Below are positions 3,105-33,061 of a stretch of 35,987 nt of DNA, piece by piece. The notes beneath the pieces are model-generated. The model was not told where the DNA came from, did not search any database, and saw only the letters and a program-made list of their open reading frames with translations. The stretch is from a virus, in the IMG/VR virus record IMGVR_UViG_3300025423_000049, positions 1 to 35,987 of that record; one strand, written 5' to 3'. Both the position numbers and the translations under genes were made by a program. Every line of letters starts with the position of its first letter. Position 1 is the first letter of the stretch.

Positions 3105-3158
3105 GGGGGTGCCTATATACAATTGTATATTACCCCCGATTCGCGGGTTAACGAATCG
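3105..3158 (-). terminator. Putative terminator of the long leftward operon
   Basis: A first inverted repeat CGATTCG/CGAATCG (3137-3143 with 3152-3158) overlaps the stop codon of the last gene. A second structure, GGGGGT/ACCCCC (3105-3110 with 3132-3137), encloses a perfect 16-base palindrome ATATACAATTGTATAT (3115-3130). On the minus strand CACTTTTG follows, a short U-run. Position and strength fit a terminator. The palindrome could also be a protein-binding site. Confidence 0.55.
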
Positions 3159-3297
3159 TTTTGCGGATTGCTTCGAAGACGTGCTGTTGGCGCCGTGCGT
3201 CAAGTACAGTTAGGTTCAACTTCTTGTAGTTCAGGTACAGTTGTTCTTCAAGTTCGTCCAACTTGCGGTGGAATGTCTTGGTTCGCATGAACATCAT
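3148..3297 (-). CDS. Small hypothetical protein (49 aa), last gene of long operon
   Basis: The frame reads MMFMRTKTFHRKLDELEEQL and continues as a basic helical protein ending VFEAIRKTIR. Heptad-like leucines in LDELEEQLYLNYKKLNL suggest a short coiled coil. Its first ATG overlaps the stop of the preceding gene as ATGA, and a second ATG follows at 3294. Codon use (GAA, AAG) matches its operon. The function is unknown. The terminator structure begins at its stop codon. Confidence 0.6.
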   Translation of the reverse strand: MMFMRTKTFHRKLDELEEQLYLNYKKLNLTVLDARRQQHVFEAIRKTIR

Positions 3298-3437
3298 AGG
3301 TCTTCGTCCTTTTCTGGGTCGCACATATCTGCTATTTCTTTAAGTATACCGCGGATTTTTTCTAGGTTCTGGTCCATAGCCCAGAAGTCAACAATGTAGT
3401 CAATGTCGTCAATCCTGGGACTGTAGTTGTCGTCCAT
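3294..3437 (-). CDS. Small acidic hypothetical protein (47 aa)
   Basis: The frame starts MDDNYSPRIDDIDYIVDFWA and ends CDPEKDEDL. It is strongly acidic and helical, with a single cysteine. The ATG shares one base with the stop of the methyltransferase/PP-loop gene (TAATG), so it is probably made in proportion to that protein. The longer in-frame extension upstream is rejected because it runs inside that gene. A small acidic partner or inhibitor of the enzyme is possible but unproven. Confidence 0.6.
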   Translation of the reverse strand: MDDNYSPRIDDIDYIVDFWAMDQNLEKIRGILKEIADMCDPEKDEDL

Positions 3438-5407
3438 TAGATTTCCCCGCATTCTTTGGCGGCATTTCTGCCGTTTCCTTTTACAAATATAAGCATGTGT
3501 TGGTGCCCGCGTCCAACCTTTCGGGAAGAACGCATTTGTTTTTCCGAACGGATGGCTAGGGTACCAACGGGGTCCACAATAATCAAGTCGTTGTACAGTT
3601 CGCAACCTATTTCACGCATAACATTTACCGTGTCGGCTACAAGGCCGTAGTAGTGACCGTCGCCCTTTTGGATTCGTGCGTCGCTAATTACAATGCCAAT
3701 GAATCGGTCGTTCTTTAACTGCTTTACTGCTGCTTCGAAGATTTCCTTGTATTCCTTTAGGAACTGGTCGTAGGGCATGTTAGAAAGGTCTTGTGGGTCA
3801 TCGCTGTAGACTTCTAGGTCCGCATAGGGTGGGCACGTAAAAATGAAGTCGTAACCTTCAGGCTGCCCCCCCAAAATTTTTTCGGGCATTTCTACGTTAA
3901 GTGGTGCGTTGAATGGTTCTTCGGGGTAGATGTTGCCCTTGAAACTTTCGTCAACAATAGAATCAATACCTGCGCCGTTGGTAAATTCTTCCTTTAGAAG
4001 TTCTTTGGCTTTTGAAAGACAGTGTTCATAGAAGTCTTTATTAAACTGGATTACTTCCAATGCAAAAAGGTTTAGGTATTCCTTTACGCATTTTTTGCAA
4101 GAACCACACCGCCCAGGAAGGATTTCACCAAATTTGGTTTCATTGGCTTTTTTAGTTTTATCACGGAAACGCATTTGTGACATGCAACCATGCGCAAAAT
4201 TGATTAATCCTTCACTAGCAACAACATGTATTGATTCTGTGCTGTTTTTTAGGTACTGGTGAAACTGCAAACCAGGAAACCTGGATTCAAGGTGTTGATG
4301 AAAAAGTTCTACTGATTCTGGATTATCCGACCAATCAAGTGTCCAATTTGCTGAAGTAATGTCGTTAGAAAAAACCCCCAAGGTGTAATGGGAACCACCG
4401 TATTCCATCATACGGCCAATCATCATTTCGGTAATAACCTGGTTTTTGGTTGGCATTTCTACAAAGCCGTTTTTTGCACCGCTAATAGAAACTTTATCAA
4501 CAAATAATGGCATGTTCATCTGGTCTGCCGCTTCCTGTGCCCATTTAAGTTCATCAGGCCACGCACGATTGATTCCAGTTATGTGGTAAAGAATTACTTT
4601 AAAACCTTCATTCCTTGCTTTAATTGCGGCAGCCATGCCATCCTTGCCGCCAGAAAAAGCAACCCACATTGTTCCGTTATCAACTGCGGTAGAAAAAACG
4701 CGGTTTGGTTCTGTTGACATGTTAAAGGAAGAAAGTTGATATGCATACTGAAGGTATGGAACCATTGAAACTGGCACGTTATGCCAGTCATTACGCATAG
4801 GGATTGAAGATGTTGAATTATAAAGGTCTACGGCTTCAAGAATAAAAGGGTTATTGGAATTCACAGACATAATTGGCCTGTCGTCATGCGAAAGGGCAAT
4901 ATGATTTGGCCCTTCAGCAACTACAGCGCTATTGCGAATATCGCTAGTAATCCATGTTGGTGGAAATTCCGAATTAGCAAGGTCAATCTGGTCGTAGTTT
5001 GATTGAACCTGTTCGGGGCGAATGTCATAACCAGTGTATGAACGGTTTAGTTGTGAAGCAACGATTCCGCGAACGCTACCCCCAGCAAAGGGGTCAAGAA
5101 TGCTTCCACCTTCGGGGCTAAACCAGCGATAGGCAACTTCGCAAATAACTGGGTCGAATACAGAAGTGCCAACTTGTTCTTCGTTTTCCGTTATTGCGTT
5201 CAATGAAACCTGACCCGTGTACGCAAGGTTTTCATTGCGACCAACTTCAGAACGCATACCCATTTGAAGCCAACGTCGTTTACGATTCTGCCATTCACCC
5301 TGGCGTCTATCCAGTACAGAAAATGGTGGTACTACAAATTTATCGGCAAGTGATACAGCAGGCTTTTTTTCCACTTCAAAAAGCGTTGCGTTTTCAAACA
5401 TGTCCAC
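3437..5407 (-). CDS. DNA methyltransferase with an inserted PP-loop ATPase domain (656 aa)
   Basis: Residues 20-160 are the N-terminal half of a phage-type DNA methylase: FVVPPFSVLDRRQGEWQ, then the SAM-binding motif LDPFAGGS near 104-111. The catalytic motif TCPPY (524-528) and a matching C-terminal half come only after residue 515. In the usual family, as I recall it, the halves are joined by a short linker. Here about 355 residues intervene. They hold a PP-loop ATPase signature FSGGKDGM (251-258) and a cysteine set CGSCKKC (C434, C437, C440) with C408 upstream, as in QueC-like or tRNA-thiolation enzymes. PP-loop enzymes adenylate a substrate, and the methylase half should recognise DNA, so the whole may install a modified base. 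GTG at 5407 is favoured over ATG at 5401 because GAAGGA lies seven bases before it. Confidence 0.85.
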   Translation of the reverse strand: MDMFENATLFEVEKKPAVSLADKFVVPPFSVLDRRQGEWQNRKRRWLQMGMRSEVGRNENLAYTGQVSLNAITENEEQVGTSVFDPVICEVAYRWFSPEGGSILDPFAGGSVRGIVASQLNRSYTGYDIRPEQVQSNYDQIDLANSEFPPTWITSDIRNSAVVAEGPNHIALSHDDRPIMSVNSNNPFILEAVDLYNSTSSIPMRNDWHNVPVSMVPYLQYAYQLSSFNMSTEPNRVFSTAVDNGTMWVAFSGGKDGMAAAIKARNEGFKVILYHITGINRAWPDELKWAQEAADQMNMPLFVDKVSISGAKNGFVEMPTKNQVITEMMIGRMMEYGGSHYTLGVFSNDITSANWTLDWSDNPESVELFHQHLESRFPGLQFHQYLKNSTESIHVVASEGLINFAHGCMSQMRFRDKTKKANETKFGEILPGRCGSCKKCVKEYLNLFALEVIQFNKDFYEHCLSKAKELLKEEFTNGAGIDSIVDESFKGNIYPEEPFNAPLNVEMPEKILGGQPEGYDFIFTCPPYADLEVYSDDPQDLSNMPYDQFLKEYKEIFEAAVKQLKNDRFIGIVISDARIQKGDGHYYGLVADTVNVMREIGCELYNDLIIVDPVGTLAIRSEKQMRSSRKVGRGHQHMLIFVKGNGRNAAKECGEI

Positions 5408-5408
5408 T

Positions 5409-5651
5409 TTATGGTCCTTCGTGTATAGGTGTGTTAACTGTTTTGTTTTTCTTTTTCCACTGAATTGTGTTCTTCATGTAGATTGGTGCATAAAAAGCAC
5501 TTGCAAAAACAAATCCGTATTGCTTTTGAATCAAGCCGTAGATTACCCATAGGAAAGCGTTCGTAAATAGAATTAACCATGCCCACCAGTATTTCCTACC
5601 AATTAGGTAGGCACCGGTAAGACCAACGCCTTCAAGAACAAACGACCACAT
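5409..5651 (-). CDS. Small three-helix membrane protein (80 aa)
   Basis: Three hydrophobic segments are seen: about residues 3-17, 22-41 (WWAWLILFTNAFLWVIYGLI) and 44-59, followed by a lysine-rich tail NTIQWKKKNK. The pattern of Trp, Tyr and Gly resembles a fragment of PnuC- or SWEET-type transporters, but it is too short for a firm call. The start codon overlaps the stop of the 29-aa membrane protein by one base (TAATG), and the methyltransferase/PP-loop gene begins immediately downstream. It might take up a precursor, exclude other phages or act in lysis. None of these is shown. Confidence 0.65.
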   Translation of the reverse strand: MWSFVLEGVGLTGAYLIGRKYWWAWLILFTNAFLWVIYGLIQKQYGFVFASAFYAPIYMKNTIQWKKKNKTVNTPIHEGP

Positions 5652-5740
5652 TAGTTAACTAACATGTCCCAAATAAGCATCAAAAGTGCACCAGTAACAA
5701 CACCAATGGCCCAGGTCAATCCAAAAGTAATATAGAACAT
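5651..5740 (-). CDS. 29-aa single-pass membrane micro-protein
   Basis: The frame reads MFYITFGLTWAIGVVTGALL and then MLIWDMLVN, one membrane helix with almost no soluble part. A good Shine-Dalgarno (GAAGGGA) lies about eight bases before the ATG. Its stop overlaps the next ATG by one base (TAATG), linking it to the three-helix membrane protein. This double junction evidence makes it more than a chance frame. It could be a subunit or regulator of that neighbour, but the function is unknown. Confidence 0.6.
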   Translation of the reverse strand: MFYITFGLTWAIGVVTGALLMLIWDMLVN

Positions 5741-5756
5741 TAGTTAATTTCCCTTC

Positions 5757-5975
5757 TTAAGCCCTGTTGCCAAGCAACGTCCAAATGCGAAGAACTTTAC
5801 TATTGGGGTCTTCGTCATAAGTGTGAATAATTTCAAGAATGTCAGCGTCTTGTTTGTCGTAAGAGTCAAGTACCTTGATTACGTCGCAGGGGTAGGACTC
5901 GCCGTCATAATTGCACTCTCTTTCTTTCCAAAGAAAATGCCTTTCTCGTATTTCTTGACGTTCTTCGGGGGTCAT
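5757..5975 (-). CDS. Acidic hypothetical protein (72 aa)
   Basis: The protein starts MTPEERQEIRERHFLWKERE and ends RIWTLLGNRA. It has two cysteines (in ECNYDGESYPC) and an acidic C-terminal half. ATG at 5975 is chosen because it overlaps the stop of the 32-aa membrane protein as TAATG. The longer frame would need a TTG start inside that gene. The family is not recognised. Confidence 0.6.
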   Translation of the reverse strand: MTPEERQEIRERHFLWKERECNYDGESYPCDVIKVLDSYDKQDADILEIIHTYDEDPNSKVLRIWTLLGNRA

Positions 5976-6073
5976 TACTTCCACGCCCCACAAATACCGG
6001 CAAGTACAAATAAGAAAAATGCTATGGCGCCAACTAAAGAAATGTGTGCAACCCAGTTGATTATTATATTCAT
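5975..6073 (-). CDS. 32-aa single-pass membrane micro-protein
   Basis: The frame opens MNIIINWVAHISLVGAIAFF, continues as LFVLAGICGAWK and consists of one long hydrophobic helix. Both ends are coupled by one-base TAATG overlaps: the start to the stop of the DNA methyltransferase, and the stop to the start of the 72-aa gene. This arrangement leaves no spare base and argues strongly that it is translated. The function is unknown. Confidence 0.65.
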   Translation of the reverse strand: MNIIINWVAHISLVGAIAFFLFVLAGICGAWK

Positions 6074-6852
6074 TATTTTAATGTACCATACTTTTGGGGG
6101 TCGGAATAATAAAGTTCTATTCTTCGCTTTGCTACTTCTGTTTGCTGCGTAGAAATGTCAACGCAAATATAAGACCGTTTGTTTTCAATTGCTGCCTGGG
6201 CAGTTAAACCAGTACCGCCAAACGGGTCAAGAACAAAATCACCTGGACGGCTGAAAAGATTTATAAACTTGTGCGCCCAACCAATGGGATAGGTGTCACC
6301 AATTGAACCAAATGCTACATCGCCTTTGGCAAGTTCTTTGTCCAATTCTTGACCTTCATTTGATACAAATTCAGTACCCCAGTTCTGCTTAAGAACCCTT
6401 TCGTCAAAATAGTGGTTAAAGTTTTTCTTTGAAAGGTGAATCCAAAAGTTGTGATAAGGGTTTATGTTTTCATAGACGGGTGTATCAGGATTTCTGAATT
6501 CAATAAACATTTCAGAACTACTGTAATCCCAGTAGAAAAATCCACGACAAGCAAGGTTAGTTTTTTTTAAGACTTCAGAAACGTAGTGGTAGGGCGTTCC
6601 AGCACCAGCAACATCGCCAATGCAAATAAGAATGTTTCCATCGTCAGCAAGAACGCGTTCCATTTCCTTTGTCGCTTTGACAAGTGACTTAACAACTTTT
6701 TTGTGGTCGGGAACAATAATTTGTTTGTCGTGTTCACCACCATAACGGTCACCGGAAAAGCCAAAATACGGCGGGTGCGTAACTATTAGATTGATGCTTC
6801 TACTGTCTAAATCCAGTTTTAAAGCATCACCAAGAAATATACCGCTTCGCAT
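6073..6852 (-). CDS. DNA methyltransferase, N4-cytosine/N6-adenine type (259 aa)
   Basis: Catalytic motif IV THPPYFG is near the N-terminus (residues 25-31). The SAM-binding motif VLDPFGGTG is near the C-terminus (about 208-216), followed by YICVDIS. This circular order is that of class beta amino-methyltransferases (N4-mC or N6-mA). The central 120 residues, with aromatic and acidic stretches, should contain the target-recognition region, and its specificity cannot be read from sequence. The length is normal for a solitary phage methylase. No restriction endonuclease gene is adjacent. The start overlaps the upstream stop as TAATG. It may protect the genome or supply the amino-modified base for the other enzymes of this operon. 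Confidence 0.9.
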   Translation of the reverse strand: MRSGIFLGDALKLDLDSRSINLIVTHPPYFGFSGDRYGGEHDKQIIVPDHKKVVKSLVKATKEMERVLADDGNILICIGDVAGAGTPYHYVSEVLKKTNLACRGFFYWDYSSSEMFIEFRNPDTPVYENINPYHNFWIHLSKKNFNHYFDERVLKQNWGTEFVSNEGQELDKELAKGDVAFGSIGDTYPIGWAHKFINLFSRPGDFVLDPFGGTGLTAQAAIENKRSYICVDISTQQTEVAKRRIELYYSDPQKYGTLK

Positions 6853-7043
6853 TAGCGTCCATCATCCCAGAATGGCCTTCTTGGTGGTGCTGGTGTTAAA
6901 AGTTCAATATCGGAAGGATTTTCTACAAGAACTTCATCAATACTTGGCCATTCAACAATAGGCCAGTCGCGACTGTTAAAACCAACAACACGACCAATAC
7001 TTGTACTTAATACTACTTCGTCACCAACTTCAAATTGATTCAT
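6852..7043 (-). CDS. Small SH3-like protein (63 aa)
   Basis: The sequence MNQFEVGDEVVLSTSIGRVV and following GFNSRDWPIVEW has the alternating pattern of a small beta-barrel (SH3/KOW-like), as in many short phage proteins that bind nucleic acid or protein. It has a proline-rich tail, LLTPAPPRRPFWDDGR. The ATG at 7043 overlaps the end of the ribbon-helix-helix gene by 14 bases. The longer frame upstream lies inside that gene and is rejected. The function is unknown. Confidence 0.6.
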   Translation of the reverse strand: MNQFEVGDEVVLSTSIGRVVGFNSRDWPIVEWPSIDEVLVENPSDIELLTPAPPRRPFWDDGR

Positions 7044-7227
7044 TGTTGTTCCAATCCCCAGCGGCATTGTAAAGTGCCTGGTTAATATATTGTGTTGGTC
7101 GCATGCCTTCTGCTTTTGCAAAAGAACGTACACGTGACCATTCTTCTGTTGAAAAATCAAGTGAAACCTTGCTGTAGTACTTTTTTTTCATCTTGCGCGG
7201 AACCCTGCGCGGTGCGTTCTTAATCAT
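7030..7227 (-). CDS. Ribbon-helix-helix DNA-binding protein (65 aa)
   Basis: After a basic N-terminal arm (residues 1-17, RRVPRKMKKK) comes a typical Arc/CopG fold: beta strand SKVSLDFS (19-26), helix A EEWSRVRSFAKAEG and helix B RPTQYINQALYNAA. Such proteins bind operators as dimers through the strand and often repress their own operon. The ATG at 7227 overlaps the GroES-like gene by eight bases. An alternative start at M13 would drop the basic arm. Candidate operators are the inverted repeat at the operon promoter (9796-9823) and the 16-base palindrome at 3115-3130. Both are inference. Confidence 0.75.
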   Translation of the reverse strand: MIKNAPRRVPRKMKKKYYSKVSLDFSTEEWSRVRSFAKAEGMRPTQYINQALYNAAGDWNNNESI

Positions 7228-7513
7228 TGTCGATAACCGCAAGGATGCCATCACTGGTGACGGTAACGTAAGGTTCGTTGTCAATTTCGATTCCGTAGGC
7301 TTTTTCTTTGCTGAAAACAACCATGTCGCCAACTTTAATGTCCATAGGAATTAGGACGCCAAACCTATTGGTTTTACCAGGACCCACAGCCATTACTTCA
7401 CCCTGATTCGGTACAGGCTGCGAAGATGCTGGGATAATAAAACCGGAATCGGTTGTTTTGTCGCTGTGGTCCAGTTTAAGGATTACACGGTCTTCAGTCG
7501 GCGTTGCGTTCAT
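7220..7513 (-). CDS. groES: GroES-like co-chaperonin (97 aa)
   Basis: The length and motif order are those of Cpn10/GroES: TEDRVILKLD at the start, a mobile-loop region about 15-35 (SDKTTDSGFIIPAS), GEVMAVGPG (38-46), VGDMVVFSKE and the closing DGILAVID. GroES caps the GroEL chamber. T4 gp31 is the known case of a phage substitute that helps fold the capsid protein. No groEL is visible, so the host GroEL would be used. The ATG overlaps the preceding gene by 20 bases. Its place in the modification operon, far from the capsid gene, is unusual and may mean that an enzyme here needs help folding. Confidence 0.88.
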   Translation of the reverse strand: MNATPTEDRVILKLDHSDKTTDSGFIIPASSQPVPNQGEVMAVGPGKTNRFGVLIPMDIKVGDMVVFSKEKAYGIEIDNEPYVTVTSDGILAVIDND

Positions 7514-7736
7514 TGTTTTCCATTTCTTCTAAAAGACTTTTAATATCGCCTTCAATGGCTTTGTATTCTTCAATTGGCATTATAACAACAGAACAATCGT
7601 CACGCAAGAAATACTGAATATCTTTTAAAGCCTGAACATAACCACGGTGCCAGGGTCGGTACCAAGGCGTTTTGCCTGATGACATTATTTCCGCCCAAAG
7701 AAGTGCCTGTTGTAATTTGTCTACACGTTTTACCAT
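7494..7736 (-). CDS. Hypothetical protein (80 aa)
   Basis: The protein begins MVKRVDKLQQALLWAEIMSS, then GKTPWYRPWHRGYVQALKDI, and ends in a long acidic helix. The Trp/His/Arg-rich middle is distinctive, but I do not recognise the family. It lies between the oxygenase and the GroES-like gene with a four-base gap upstream and a 20-base overlap downstream, so it is clearly part of the operon. Confidence 0.65.
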   Translation of the reverse strand: MVKRVDKLQQALLWAEIMSSGKTPWYRPWHRGYVQALKDIQYFLRDDCSVVIMPIEEYKAIEGDIKSLLEEMENNERNAD

Positions 7737-7740
7737 GTCA

Positions 7741-8304
7741 CTACCCCAACCACATTGGAAGGGTGCAACGGTAATTTCCTAAAACCTTTTTAACACGATG
7801 AAGGTGTTTGTACTGGTCCCAGTTGTGTGACCAATGATTGTCAGGGTTTACAGGGTCATCGGTAAACCAAATGAAACTGCCCTTTACTGGTTTGTACGAA
7901 ATGTTTAAGTTCGGGAATTCAATTTCCCCGCCTTCAAAGTTATCGTTAAGGTAAAAGATTCCCGAATATTTTGCGCCATGTCCCTTAATTTTTGGGTCAG
8001 CGTTATCCACGTGCGCAGTTCCTGATAATCCTGGGCGCCAAATACTTAGGTCACCATCCATGCGCGGGTATGGGCCGTCGTTGTATTTTTCCTTTACCTG
8101 GGAACAGAAGATTTCGTAGCACTTTTCAATAAAACGCTTATCTTCTTCTTCGGGTTCTTCAATAATAAGGATTTGTGGTTCGTCAAAGAATGCCTTAAGT
8201 TTAAATTCTTCGCGAAGCCTTATAAGTTTTGCCGAAAAGTAATCACAATCTTTTTCAGGGATTGCATCCTTTAAAAGGTGTACACCTTCAGCAAGTTCGG
8301 TCAT
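7741..8304 (-). CDS. 2-oxoglutarate/Fe(II)-dependent oxygenase (187 aa)
   Basis: The iron-binding HxD is AHVDNAD (H98, D100). The distal histidine is H169 in HLHRVKKVLG, followed ten residues later by R179, which should bind 2-oxoglutarate. GGEIEFPNLNISYKPVKGS fits the strands typical of prolyl-4-hydroxylase-like enzymes. These hydroxylate proteins, nucleotides or DNA bases. The ATG at 8304 overlaps the stop of the DUF1599-like gene as ATGA, and the 14-residue longer frame is rejected. Phage relatives are often annotated as oxygenases of unknown substrate. Lying beside two DNA methyltransferases and a DUF1599 protein, it may hydroxylate a base or a base precursor, but a protein substrate is equally possible. 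Confidence 0.85.
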   Translation of the reverse strand: MTELAEGVHLLKDAIPEKDCDYFSAKLIRLREEFKLKAFFDEPQILIIEEPEEEDKRFIEKCYEIFCSQVKEKYNDGPYPRMDGDLSIWRPGLSGTAHVDNADPKIKGHGAKYSGIFYLNDNFEGGEIEFPNLNISYKPVKGSFIWFTDDPVNPDNHWSHNWDQYKHLHRVKKVLGNYRCTLPMWLG

Positions 8305-8633
8305 TGCTTGTACCAGTTTGGCCCATATGTATCGCGACGGTAGCAAATAATAGCGCCAATGTTGTACACAGGCATGTCAATAAGACTGTCTTCAACAGAT
8401 TCATTCGTCATTGGCGTTCCGTAACGAATGTGGTTTTTAATTCGGTGAAGTTTGTCATTCATGCGAATCAAGGCGCCTACCCATCCAGGCGTTCCGAATT
8501 CCGCACTAGCAAGAACATTTGCCCAACTATCTTCTGGGCTTCCATAATCCTTGGATTTGCGGTCGTGCATTTCCTTTAGTTCTATAAGAACTGCTTCAAA
8601 TTCAACGTTGGGGTCTAAGGTAACTTTTTTCAT
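8301..8633 (-). CDS. DUF1599/MazG-like all-helical protein (110 aa)
   Basis: The sequence contains EMHDRKSKDYGSPEDSWANV and ALIRMNDKLHRI, then VEDSLIDMPVYNIGA, an all-helical acidic pattern. It matches what I remember of DUF1599 (also named nucleotide modification associated domain 1) and of MazG-type nucleotide pyrophosphatases. Such proteins may hydrolyse or bind (d)NTPs, so it could clean the nucleotide pool for a modified base. ATG at 8633 is chosen over the longer frame because AGAAAG precedes it and the extension would overlap the upstream gene. It is coupled to the oxygenase by an ATGA overlap. Confidence 0.7.
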   Translation of the reverse strand: MKKVTLDPNVEFEAVLIELKEMHDRKSKDYGSPEDSWANVLASAEFGTPGWVGALIRMNDKLHRIKNHIRYGTPMTNESVEDSLIDMPVYNIGAIICYRRDTYGPNWYKQ

Positions 8634-8644
8634 AATTTCTTTCT

Positions 8645-9316
8645 TTATTTGTAAGATTTGCGTTGCCACTTTGTTTTACGGTACCAGTCATGGGCGCTTT
8701 TGGTTTCAAGTTCGCGTCCTTCATGTGCTAACCCCTTGACTTTCTTGCTTTCCCAATCTTCACGCAAAAAAGGTATAATTTGTAGAACTGGTGTTCCTTC
8801 TGGAATAAGACCTTCAAAACCTTCTTTTAGGAAGAAGGGAATATTTCCGCCCATCAGTGGGAAGTCATTTTCCATAACGCCAGAAAGCGTAATAAATGGC
8901 AATTCAAAGCGATTCATTGGGTGTATGTACAATGCGCTGTACCCTTCAGGAAGACGTACGCAGGCGCGCGTAGTCCATGTCCAATAGTAGGGTTCGTAAC
9001 CATGCGGAACCGGCATGGGGTCTGTTTGAATTTGATGCCTTGCGCTTACCCCATCCCCTTCAATGGCATAACGAAATATTGGAAAACCCTGTGAACGGTC
9101 GACGTAAATGTCAGTGTTAAGCGTAACATAATAACCGGTTGTCATTGATTCCAAAAATGGAAGACAGTGTTTTGCCGACATTGTGTTTGTATCACCAGGA
9201 ATTACAACATCCCTTGGAATTTGCTTATACCATTCAGGTATTGCAGTTCGTGCTGAAACTACTTCATTGTCAAATCCGTGAAGACTTTCCCACTCAAGAA
9301 GTTTTCTTTTAGACAT
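8645..9316 (-). CDS. Conserved phage protein of unknown function (223 aa)
   Basis: The protein has no membrane segment and begins MSKRKLLEWESLHG. Recognisable blocks are PEWYKQIPRD, a central CLPFLESMTTGYYVTLN, and near the end GTPVLQIIPFLREDW. From memory the same blocks occur in a protein family common in cyanophages and other aquatic phages (I believe DUF6065), whose role is not known. AAAGGA stands before the ATG. It is the first protein gene after the two tRNAs and directly precedes the DUF1599 and oxygenase genes, so it may serve the same pathway. Confidence 0.7.
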   Translation of the reverse strand: MSKRKLLEWESLHGFDNEVVSARTAIPEWYKQIPRDVVIPGDTNTMSAKHCLPFLESMTTGYYVTLNTDIYVDRSQGFPIFRYAIEGDGVSARHQIQTDPMPVPHGYEPYYWTWTTRACVRLPEGYSALYIHPMNRFELPFITLSGVMENDFPLMGGNIPFFLKEGFEGLIPEGTPVLQIIPFLREDWESKKVKGLAHEGRELETKSAHDWYRKTKWQRKSYK

Positions 9317-9333
9317 AATTTCCTTTCATTTAT

Positions 9334-9407
9334 TGGCTGGCAGACTAGGACTCGAACCTAGAACGAGGGATTCAAAGTCCCTAGTGTTGCCATTACACCA
9401 TCTGCCA
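9334..9407 (-). tRNA. trnQ: tRNA-Gln (anticodon UUG)
   Basis: A full cloverleaf is seen. The acceptor is TGGCAGA/TCTGCCA, the D-stem GTGT/ACAC, the anticodon stem AGGGA/TCCCT with loop CTTTGAA, and the T-stem CTAGG/CCTAG with TTCGAGT. The discriminator is G and CCA is encoded. UUG reads CAA, a common codon in the phage genes. It lies in the leader part of the long leftward operon. Confidence 0.95.
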
Positions 9408-9412
9408 AATTG

Positions 9413-9484
9413 CTGGTCAGGTAGGACTCGAACCTACAACCACCTCATTAACAGTGAGGTGCACTGCCATTGTGCTACTGACCA
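9413..9484 (-). tRNA. trnN: tRNA-Asn (anticodon GUU)
   Basis: All four stems pair: TGGTCAG/CTGACCA, GCAC/GTGC, CCTCA/TGAGG with loop CTGTTAA, and GTAGG/CCTAC. The 3' end is G followed by CAA, so CCA is not encoded and must be added. It lies five bases upstream of tRNA-Gln on the same strand, probably on one precursor transcript. GUU reads AAC, heavily used in the virion genes. Confidence 0.95.
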
Positions 9485-9491
9485 ATGCGAA

Positions 9492-9776
9492 TTAACGCAA
9501 ACGCTTCTTTGGTTCAGGATTTTTTTCTGACTTCTTGGGCGCCCGTGTAGTTTTTGATTGCGCAGGTGCAGGTGCGGGTGCAGGTGCAGGTTGCGCAAGT
9601 TGTCCCAACTTTTTGTCCAGTACTTCCAATTTTGTAAGAATGCTGTTAATTTCTGCTTCTACGTATGAAATGTAGTTTTCTGCCTTGGTTGCGTACTTCC
9701 TTAGCATTGCTACCCCACCGCCAGCAGTACCGGCCCAGGCAACCGCAATGGATACGATTGATGATGTATTTGACAT
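9492..9776 (-). CDS. Small membrane/coiled-coil protein (94 aa)
   Basis: Residues 5-24 (SSIVSIAVAWAGTAGGGVAM) form one membrane helix. A helical coiled-coil-like segment (about 30-60, ILTKLEVLDKKLGQL) follows, then a (PA)n hinge and a very basic tail rich in Lys and Arg. ATG at 9776 has AAAGGAT before it, and the longer frame would enter the promoter. It is the first gene of the long leftward operon. The layout resembles a small holin accessory, a spanin-like protein or a membrane anchor, and none is certain. Confidence 0.65.
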   Translation of the reverse strand: MSNTSSIVSIAVAWAGTAGGGVAMLRKYATKAENYISYVEAEINSILTKLEVLDKKLGQLAQPAPAPAPAPAQSKTTRAPKKSEKNPEPKKRLR

Positions 9777-9795
9777 TTTTATCCTTTGTTTTAGG

Positions 9796-9855
9796 GTGTG
9801 CGCAAATTCCCATCTGGGCACACGACAACATACACCCAAAACGCGGCGCCGTCAA
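9796..9855 (-). promoter_or_regulatory. Promoter of the long leftward operon with an operator-like repeat
   Basis: On the minus strand TTGACG (9855-9850), a 17-base spacer and TATGTT (9832-9827) make a good sigma70-type promoter. The start is expected near 9820. An inverted repeat GTGTGC/GCACAC (9796-9801 with 9818-9823) overlaps that start and could be an operator, possibly for the ribbon-helix-helix protein of the same operon. The leader is about 44 bases, and the 94-aa gene and tRNAs come first. Confidence 0.7.
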
Positions 9856-31819: not shown

Positions 31820-33061
31820 ATGATAAGCATCTTTACGCCCACCCACAACCCAAAATATCTGGACCAGGCTTACGAAAGTCTTAAAAACCAGACTTATACA
31901 GCATGGGAATGGGTGGTGTTACTTAATGGTGACGCTAAGTGGAACCGTCCAGAATATGACGACCGCGTTGTTATCATTAAGGCAAGCAAAAAAAGTGAAG
32001 GATTTGTTGGCGCTTTAAAGCGCGAAGCAGTCAGTCATTGCGTTGGCGAAATCCTTGTGGAATTAGACCACGACGACATTCTTATGCCAAACGCACTGGA
32101 AGTGCTTGCACAAGCCTTTGCTGAAAACCCAGATGCTTCCTTTGTTTATTCTGATTTTTCCTACATTAACGAAGATGGCACACCAAGCAATCACCGTTAT
32201 TCTTCCGAATATGGCTGGGAATACCATGTAGAAGATGGCTACAACGTTTGCCATGGCATGGAACCAAGCCCACACAACGTTTCTTTGATTTGGTATGCAC
32301 CAAACCACGTTCGTGCTTTCCGTAAGTCTTCTTACAAAGATGCCGGTGGTTACGACGAAAAATTAAAAGTTTTGGACGACCAAGACCTTATGGCGCGTTT
32401 GTTCATTCAGGGTGAATTTGTTCACGTAAAAAAGAACCTTTACCTGCAAAGAATGCACGAAGAAAACACGCAATCAAAGTCTGACATTAACCCATTCATT
32501 CAAACCGAAACCGTAAGAATGAATAACGTTAATCTTCAGCCTATGCTTCTTGCCTGGTCAAAGCGCAATAATCTTATGGCAATCGACATGGGTGCTGCAC
32601 ATAATCCAACACCAGGATACGCAACGCTTGACATGCACGAACCAGCAGACCTTGTTGGTGATGTTTTTGACATTCTTGCAAGCCTTGACGACAACAGTGT
32701 TGGTGTTATCCGCGCAGTTGACTTCCTGGAACACATCCCAGACAAAGTGCGTATTTGGAACGAAATGTATCGCGTCCTTGCCCACGGCGGAATGGTCCTA
32801 AGCCTTACACCTAGCACAGATGGACGTGGTGCTTTCCAAGACCCAACGCACAATTCTTTTTACAACGAAAATAGTTTCTGGTATTTTGCAGATGAAAACT
32901 ACCGCAAGTACGTTCCAGAACTAAAGATGGACTTTCAAGCCGTTACGCTTCAAACATACTTCCCAAGCGAATGGCACAAAAAACACAATATTTCCTACGT
33001 AAACGCAAACCTTATTGCACTTAAGGGTGGTGAGCGTCAAGGAGGAAGACTAGGAATCTAA
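31820..33061 (+). CDS. Glycosyltransferase family 2 fused to a SAM methyltransferase (413 aa)
   Basis: Residues 1-230 are a GT-A glycosyltransferase: SIFTPTHNPKYLDQAYESLK, then the DxD motif D83-H-D85 in ELDHDD, and a late GGYDEKLKVLDDQDLMARL. Residues about 250-400 are a methyltransferase of the type 11 class: DMGAAHNPTPGYATLDM, then VDFLEHIPDKVRIWNEMYRV and LSLTPSTDGRG. The two would add and methylate a sugar. Its place among baseplate genes suggests that a virion protein or fibre is glycosylated, but the target is unknown. An AAGG ribosome site precedes the ATG. Confidence 0.88.
   Translation: MISIFTPTHNPKYLDQAYESLKNQTYTAWEWVVLLNGDAKWNRPEYDDRVVIIKASKKSEGFVGALKREAVSHCVGEILVELDHDDILMPNALEVLAQAFAENPDASFVYSDFSYINEDGTPSNHRYSSEYGWEYHVEDGYNVCHGMEPSPHNVSLIWYAPNHVRAFRKSSYKDAGGYDEKLKVLDDQDLMARLFIQGEFVHVKKNLYLQRMHEENTQSKSDINPFIQTETVRMNNVNLQPMLLAWSKRNNLMAIDMGAAHNPTPGYATLDMHEPADLVGDVFDILASLDDNSVGVIRAVDFLEHIPDKVRIWNEMYRVLAHGGMVLSLTPSTDGRGAFQDPTHNSFYNENSFWYFADENYRKYVPELKMDFQAVTLQTYFPSEWHKKHNISYVNANLIALKGGERQGGRLGI

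Follow-up and report, generated by a model that had tools for sequence, protein, structure and literature searches.

One gene in the DNA of a virus, IMG/VR record IMGVR_UViG_3300025423_000049, encodes a DNA methyltransferase (MTase) with an ATPase inserted between its two halves (the whole record, 35,987 bases long, was analyzed and is called the window here). This protein, MTase-1, belongs to the phage ParB-type amino-MTase family, and the inserted PP-loop domain conserves its ATP loop and four cysteines; in phages, the two kinds of enzyme are recurrently coupled. We see about an even chance that MTase-1 is a two-step DNA-base-modifying enzyme and one version of a toolkit in which phages combine this MTase family with different partner enzymes. 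MTase-1 and its relatives point to an undescribed way for phages to disguise their DNA chemically. A sequence-only reading of the window had proposed a DNA-modification operon of unrecognized type. What stood of that proposal is the MTase with its built-in PP-loop domain, a pairing that recurs in fused, split, and adjacent form; the wider multigene pathway did not stand, and the operon shrinks to one gene, MTase-1.

An amino-methyltransferase interrupted by a PP-loop domain

MTase-1 and its parts lie in the window as follows (aa, amino acids).

3437..5407, minus strand: MTase-1, ParB-type amino-MTase with an inserted, predicted QueC-like PP-loop ATPase; 656 aa, GTG start
4931..5407, minus strand: N-half of MTase-1 (aa 1-159); linker, motif I DPFAGGSVRG, strand PPTWITSD
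3860..4930, minus strand: insert (aa 160-516), predicted QueC/QatC/Cap9-like PP-loop domain; SGGKDG, P319 K321 N322, D361, C408 C434 C437 C440
3437..3859, minus strand: C-half of MTase-1; motif IV TCPPY and the remaining catalytic half

Matches to PHROG 12517 (4.7e-89) and PHROG 498 (3.3e-68) put MTase-1 in the phage ParB-type amino-MTase family, and its alignment shows the VPPFSVLD linker, motif I DPFAGGSVRG, and motif IV CPPYADLEVYSDD of that family. The open reading frame (ORF) begins at the linker, and a Pfam scan found no N-terminal ParB domain (ParB_N) in it; relatives such as L057 carry ParB_N (L numbers are our locus labels). MTase-1 exceeds the Pfam N6_N4_Mtase cutoff of 26.7 bits (52.4 bits), and N4/N6 methyl transfer is its predicted activity. 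A separate protein encoded at 6073-6852 also exceeds this cutoff (79.8 bits), so that the two DNA MTases first read from the sequence were confirmed. The halves of MTase-1 are split by about 357 residues, within which the PP-loop ATPase sits; its placement inside one of the MTases, likewise part of the earlier reading, is now backed by 22 viral-contig loci, a profile, and a predicted structure. Three other contigs encode a protein 100% identical to MTase-1. Among genome contigs there was one fragmentary relative, in a Cytophagales metagenome-assembled genome in which QueC was looked for as a comparison and not found.

The inserted domain is predicted to be QueC-like

Pfam barely detects the insert (ATP_bind_3, E = 0.032, below the cutoff). 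Against Pfam QueC (PF06508; gathering threshold, 22 bits), the L024 homologue scored 23.9 bits, L208 19.8, L212 12.8, and the window 11.3. Whole-protein alignments that mixed MTases with separate PP-loop proteins misaligned the two; a 13-row alignment of the PP-loop sequences contains 20 invariant columns, four cysteines included, and the invariant residues comprise, among others, G253, G254, D256, P319, K321, N322, D361, C408, C434, C437, and C440 (window numbering). The AlphaFold2 model, which covers the PP-loop domain (pLDDT, 77.7; pTM, 0.81), was ranked by VIA-align closest to QatC (Z, 16.7 over 271 residues), Cap9 (15.6 over 173 residues), and QueC (14.7 and 13.9), with ThiI and YcfA (both 11.6), LarE (11.1), and TtuA (9.7) ranking lower.

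The PP-loop family shares with the QueC superfamily the predicted Rossmann-like fold, the SGGxD loop, the Asp of the YPD motif, and a four-Cys site. Canonical QueC, the preQ0 synthase, has the signature YxQxHxxE, VPxRN, YPDC, and C(x)8CxxCxxC (PMC13329287). In our alignments, the PP-loop family does not carry this published signature as a whole: it has PxKN instead of PxRN/VPxRN, with Lys replacing the essential Arg, and C(x)25CxxCxxC instead of C(x)8CxxCxxC (PMC13329287). Only the Asp of YPDC is invariant among the 13 aligned sequences, 5 of which (window, L024, L208, L209, and L215) have an aromatic residue two positions before it. On the model and the alignment, the insert is predicted to be QueC-like and not a canonical QueC.

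These comparisons also bear on base thiolation, in which the PP-loop domain would activate a base carbonyl and insert sulfur in the manner of TtuA, MnmA, and LarE, while the pyridoxal phosphate (PLP) enzyme of relatives would be a cysteine desulfhydrase and the MTase would methylate nearby or on the sulfur. TtuA is the top match in a PDB sequence search, and in Foldseek TrmU/MnmA (2hma) ties with QueC (3bl5) at an E value of 1.2e-4, although the QueC and Cap9 targets are better covered (target-normalized TM score, TMt, of 0.67 for 3bl5 and 0.62 for Cap9 versus 0.29 for 2hma). LarE is the best NCBIfam match for two of the three separate PP-loop proteins scanned, L208 (6.4e-8) and L212 (7.3e-7), both far below the cutoff (highest LarE score, 32.2 bits against a curated 150); for the third, L024, it is QueC. 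In Staphylococcus phage Alsa_1 (L008), the MTase, PP-loop, and PLP enzyme genes stand together (3663-6423), and the PLP enzyme weakly resembles D-cysteine desulfhydrase (3.5e-4), behind threonine synthase. We nevertheless consider thiolation unlikely. PALP, the PLP enzyme family, is absent from 15 of the 16 PP-loop records (some of them short fragments), and the AdoMetDC partners described below do not fit thiolation. The alignment contains the QueC-like four-Cys pattern (C...CxxCxxC) and not the three-Cys [4Fe-4S] pattern of LarE. The VIA-align ranking and this motif both resemble QueC, and the QueC motifs are reported to be missing from LarE (PMC13329287); amide formation is therefore favored over thiolation as the probable activity of the domain.

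PP-loop and methyltransferase genes are recurrently paired

The 22 loci came from a three-row profile scan of viral contigs, with 3 of them near-identical to the window, and the collected PP-loop proteins form 15 lineages at 90% identity. In nine lineages (window, L024 group, L208, L209, L210, L212, L213, L220, and L222), the PP-loop protein is fused to a ParB-type MTase, lies between its halves, or is encoded no more than 460 nucleotides (nt) from it, and in three others (L211, L215, and Alsa_1), it lies within 1.8 kb of another amino-MTase with the motif DPCxGWGxRM/V. The PP-loop gene of L208 and L209 stands between separate genes for the two MTase halves, which reads as the split counterpart of the fused window gene. 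Insertion points differ between partners, the window insert following the strand PPTWITSD and PLP inserts preceding the matching strand. On a tree that did not include L208 and L209, the PP-loop label (seven rows) changes five times, and well-supported branches force at least two of these changes; the pairing thus appears to have arisen at least twice separately. Coupling of MTase and PP-loop protein is well supported.

The nearest structures, QatC and Cap9, are defense proteins that modify, or are thought to modify, protein N termini (PMC13279940), which favors a reading in which the MTase makes ordinary N4-methylcytosine (m4C) or N6-methyladenine (m6A), while the PP-loop domain modifies either the MTase or some partner protein, in the manner of Cap9 and, by proposal, QatC, whose target is an N-terminal glycine. 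In L211, the MTase ORF at 6225-6953, next to a PP-loop gene, indeed reads Met-Gly from its GTG start. The other MTase ORFs beside PP-loop genes and the window protein lack such a start (starts were called mechanically, and some ORFs are open at the 5' end), and with this single instance, an N-terminal glycine target was rejected. Since the recurrent partners are DNA MTases, and the PP-loop gene even lies between MTase halves in L208 and L209, we regard a protein target as quite improbable.

Three further observations concern these loci. A radical S-adenosylmethionine (SAM) gene (PF04055, over the cutoff) is next to the PP-loop gene at L221:6372-7523 and L224:4536-5654, which suggests a further partner of the QueC-like ATPase. 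On the phage contig L024, a SET-domain protein (PF00856, over the cutoff) is encoded directly after the PP-loop gene (2371-2976). In Alsa_1, the PP-loop gene is spread over two reading frames, one of which holds the P-loop and the other the remainder.

Relatives of MTase-1 are coupled to PLP enzymes

By tblastn, the MTase family matched 24 of 50,697 phage records. A scan of viral contigs confirmed at least 591 relatives, and the frequencies given here hold for the best 80, many of which are contig fragments. Partners in these 80 loci were a PLP enzyme in 15, S-adenosylmethionine decarboxylase (AdoMetDC) in 3, and a PP-loop protein in 3, one of them the window's kin. Three of the 15 PLP enzymes are inserted in the MTase and 12 are separate genes, from overlapping to 1,150 nt away. 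Among named phages, Pseudanabaena phage Pam4 and Erythrobacter phage ZS04 carry a PLP-dependent fold-type-II enzyme as an insert within the same MTase, and in Microcystis phage Mae-JY30 and mycobacteriophage AlanGrant this enzyme is encoded by the next gene. The PLP domain is inserted close to the PP-loop site in L005, L006, L027, L054, and L056 and is a downstream gene in others; on the tree, the PLP label (12 rows) changes five times, at least once by force. A PLP enzyme as the universal partner of PP-loop proteins was ruled out, Alsa_1 being the only instance among the 16 PP-loop records, some of which are short fragments.

When relatives were clustered at 90% identity, the 75 clusters with the motif GGSVRG comprised 17 with a PLP enzyme, 6 with a PP-loop protein, none with AdoMetDC, and 52 with no partner within the 1.2 kb examined. 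All three GGEQTKG clusters have a PP-loop protein. Eight other clusters, with other or misread motifs (L073 is really GGSVRG), have no partner and fall outside both counts. The phage contigs L028 (5638-8332) and L076 (5956-9354) each encode two members of the ParB-type MTase family, arranged in tandem or close to one another.

A clade linked to AdoMetDC has an altered cofactor half

In Pseudomonas phage ZRG1 and Croceibacter phage P2559S, AdoMetDC is the next gene after the MTase, overlapping its end in P2559S. The AdoMetDC-linked MTases read FAGDTVFG where others have FAGGSVRG. The GDTVFG motif alone was then used to scan viral contigs, yielding 109 loci, in which AdoMetDC is directly downstream in 96 and further on in 2; the stretch ended early in 5, and 1 had no motif-bearing MTase. 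At 90% identity, 64 of 66 GDTVFG clusters have AdoMetDC, compared with 0 of 75 GGSVRG clusters. In whole records, it was found in 16 of 22 with GDTVFG and 0 of 35 others (8 of the 22 had been fetched as a stretch lacking AdoMetDC or ending early, and P2559S counts twice). L142, L162, L193, and L199 have a GDTVFG MTase with a different ORF downstream, and no AdoMetDC there, despite room, or elsewhere in the record.

The pyruvoyl-site ESH is intact in all 103 AdoMetDC ORFs. The SpeD of Croceibacter phage P2559s restored spermidine in an Escherichia coli speD mutant, whereas the substrate of certain other phage SpeD homologues is arginine or ornithine (PMC9992855); therefore, at least one of the MTase-linked enzymes makes decarboxylated SAM. 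Spermidine synthase (SpeE) was found in 0 of 20 GDTVFG records (P2559S counted twice), and phage spermidine synthesis was rejected as the role of AdoMetDC, although a host SpeE is possible.

We compared conserved alignment columns between the two MTase classes (104 and 81 sequences, not dereplicated). Class-switching columns were concentrated in the cofactor half (8 of 29; catalytic half, 1 of 42; P = 0.0026), at a stricter threshold (7 of 25 versus 1 of 32; P = 0.016), and after removal of the three selection columns (5 of 26 versus 1 of 42; P = 0.027). On the tree, the AdoMetDC-linked MTases form one clade (support, 100/97). Since this clade has a single origin and the columns depend on one another, the comparison supports a cofactor change in these MTases without proving it.

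Proposed two-step modification of DNA bases

We infer the chemistry of MTase-1 and its partners as follows. In a first step, the split amino-MTase would flip a base and move a SAM-derived group onto its exocyclic amine. The base would probably be cytosine because of the [S/T]-C-P-P-Y motif of MTase-1, which we take to mark cytosine as the likely target. In a second step, the QueC-like domain, which lies in the sequence between the cofactor half and motif IV, would bind ATP, adenylate a carboxylate, and join it to an amine or ammonia to give an amide; this step is suggested by the predicted fold and the conserved residues. Across the proposed toolkit, the partner taken on by the same MTase family to change the cofactor or finish the transferred group would be a QueC-like ATPase, a PLP fold-type-II enzyme, or AdoMetDC, and the AdoMetDC clade, with its altered cofactor half, would probably transfer aminopropyl from decarboxylated SAM. 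A phage genome modified in this way would be expected to resist host nucleases.

We also entertain, as less likely than not, a bolder possibility, namely, that the family, rather than methylating, attaches the amino-acid tail of SAM to DNA bases, where partners process it. We propose the tail since it could serve as a substrate for AdoMetDC, PLP enzymes, and amide-forming ATPases alike. The AdoMetDC clade would transfer aminopropyl from decarboxylated SAM, and other members would transfer 3-amino-3-carboxypropyl from SAM, leaving an amino acid on the base that a PLP enzyme could rework. The QueC-like domain of the window might convert the carboxylate of that amino acid to an amide or, alternatively, couple its amine to a second carboxylate, perhaps deazaguanine, as Cap9 does. 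In microcin C7 biosynthesis, MccD/MccE transfer the aminocarboxypropyl of SAM, which a PLP domain then processes; the proposed scheme would be alike in tail transfer and PLP chemistry, with DNA as the target instead of a peptide-nucleotide.

Several points weigh against the two-step reading, besides the LarE and TrmU/MnmA matches given above. We know of no measured reaction for any member of the family and found no biochemical data for MTase-1. A search of the window found no AdoMetDC, PLP, or CmoA homologue, so that nothing there shows a nonmethyl donor. In L221, the sole MTase ORF is a partial one some 1.9 kb upstream, and no MTase gene adjoins the PP-loop gene in L224 or in the fragment L226. 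The PP-loop label on the tree barely beats chance (shuffled labels averaged 6.8 changes, and 12 of 500 shuffles were as low as 5). Five of the 109 GDTVFG loci lack AdoMetDC despite room; with a single AdoMetDC clade, the motif and the partner may be one inherited event. No partner was found within the 1.2 kb examined in 52 of the 75 GGSVRG clusters, and plain methylation may therefore be the basic activity of the family. The same 52 clusters, together with the window P-loop, which reads SGGKDG where most relatives end in Ser (SGGKDS), speak for the insert being a passenger or decaying domain in a plain orphan methylase. Yet the 20 invariant columns with their four Cys, the at least two separate pairings on the tree, and the identical protein in three other contigs make a passenger very unlikely.

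Relation to known systems

The nearest precedent for a two-step MTase-1 is CmoX/CmoY. In the CmoA-CmoX-CmoY system of Synechococcus phage S-B43, whose cofactor enzyme, transferase, and ligase genes adjoin, an MTase homologue decorates DNA with a group taken from a SAM derivative, and the group is then completed by an ATP-dependent ligase that forms AMP; carboxylates installed by an MTase thus serve phages as handles for such ligases (PMC12783734). The scheme proposed for MTase-1 would share with it an MTase that installs a SAM-derived group and an ATP-dependent enzyme that finishes it. The parts differ: CmoX, which uses carboxy-SAM, is a C5-cytosine MTase, and CmoY resembles asparagine synthetase (PMC12783734), whereas MTase-1 is an N4/N6-type ParB MTase with a predicted QueC-like ATPase inserted in it. 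CmoA belongs to the S-B43 system, but TIGR00740 was found in 0 of 41 records here, window included (records may be fragments), and CmoA was rejected as the cofactor source. A preliminary search reported in PMC12783734 found no CmoA-associated N6 or N4 carboxymethyltransferase candidates.

Compared with the QueC superfamily, Cap9 and QatC included, the PP-loop family stands out in that it usually neighbors a DNA MTase; the words methyltransferase, methylase, and ParB did not turn up when the main text of the superfamily paper (PMC13329287) was searched for them. The P2559s enzyme proven active in PMC9992855 is a member of the MTase-linked set. Phage AdoMetDC/SpeD genes are treated there as polyamine genes, while those described here immediately follow a DNA MTase gene in which the cofactor motif is altered; the terms methyltransferase, methylase, ParB, and DNA modification were not found in a term search of that paper. 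Among the literature matches listed, no title or abstract opening pairs this MTase with AdoMetDC, PLP, PP-loop, or QueC, although an earlier mention is possible.

Most neighboring genes lie outside the conserved module

MTase-1 is part of a leftward run of ORFs (9316 to 3148) that are closely spaced or overlap, and two tRNA genes lie upstream of the run; this much of the earlier reading, a single leftward gene cluster with two tRNAs, was borne out; promoter and terminator scans did no better than shuffled sequences. Other features of this region are listed below.

5409..5651, minus strand: 80-aa small protein, abutting MTase-1; PHROG 2421, weak NMN-transporter similarity
6073..6852, minus strand: MTase-2, separate N6_N4_Mtase protein; 259 aa, motif IV HPPY
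7741..8346, minus strand: 2-oxoglutarate (2OG)-Fe(II) oxygenase by Pfam; outside the conserved module
8301..8669, minus strand: DUF1599-like protein, below the Pfam cutoff, PHROG 1485; outside the conserved module
8645..9316, minus strand: 223-aa conserved protein with a weakly dUTPase/dCTP-deaminase-like predicted fold; outside the conserved module
9334-9407, same strand as the leftward run: tRNA-Gln, upstream of the run
9412-9484, same strand as the leftward run: tRNA-Asn, upstream of the run

The identities first assigned to these proteins fared unevenly. The 2OG oxygenase (34.1 bits; Pfam cutoff, 27) and the GroES-like protein (88.8 bits; cutoff, 21.1) were upheld, as was conservation of the 223-aa protein (PHROG 7084, E = 8.4e-32; present in 49 phage records). 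The DUF1599-like protein matches PHROG 1485 (9.5e-14) but stays below the Pfam cutoff (18.4 against 25 bits), and no library confirmed the ribbon-helix-helix (RHH) protein (no Pfam match at E ≤ 1; best PHROG E, 0.03). Motif IV of N4/N6 MTases is usually S/D/N-PPY, and the HPPY of MTase-2 is unusual. In the tail region of the window, one ORF (31820-33061) resembles, as judged by eye, a family 2 glycosyltransferase followed by a methyltransferase-like stretch.

The tight leftward packing with overlapping ORFs is what favors one hypermodification operon in which both MTases, the 2OG oxygenase, the DUF1599-like protein, the 223-aa protein, and others act together, and MTase-2 homologues do occur in the PP-loop loci L215 and L216 and DUF1599 homologues in the PLP-type MTase loci L054 and L067. 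In a phmmer comparison of neighbors (E ≤ 1e-3; flanks of up to 7 kb, many stretches being shorter), however, homologues of the 2OG, DUF1599, 223-aa, GroES, RHH, and 80-aa proteins were found around PP-loop genes only in contigs near-identical to the window, contrary to the expectation that these genes travel together across phages. The same holds for the 32 loci of the 223-aa family: 2OG or DUF1599 occurs only in the 4 near-identical contigs and in none of the other 28, one of which (L256) has an MTase-2 homologue. The whole run as one pathway was rejected on this co-occurrence and is the least probable of the explanations considered; DUF1599 may still be loosely linked to the MTase family. 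The 223-aa protein was likewise rejected as a modification enzyme, given its absence of association with 2OG or DUF1599 in those 28 loci and its weakly dUTPase/dCTP-deaminase-like model (best E, 5.7e-4; query-normalized TM score, TMq, 0.31). This protein is also shared with haloarchaeal viruses.

Significance

If the two-step reading is true, one phage MTase family would be a platform that at least three unrelated partner enzymes have joined to produce distinct DNA bases. The reading predicts that DNA contains an aminopropylated base derived from decarboxylated SAM, and it would explain what the MTase-linked phage AdoMetDC is for in records that have no spermidine synthase gene. Isolated phages, namely, P2559S, ZRG1, AlanGrant, Pam4, and ZS04, would serve as test cases. 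The carboxylate-handle idea of CmoX/CmoY would extend to amino-MTases, and a QueC-like enzyme would gain a likely DNA substrate. Should the bolder possibility of SAM-tail transfer hold, the family would represent a new enzyme class, nucleic-acid aminoalkyl transferases.

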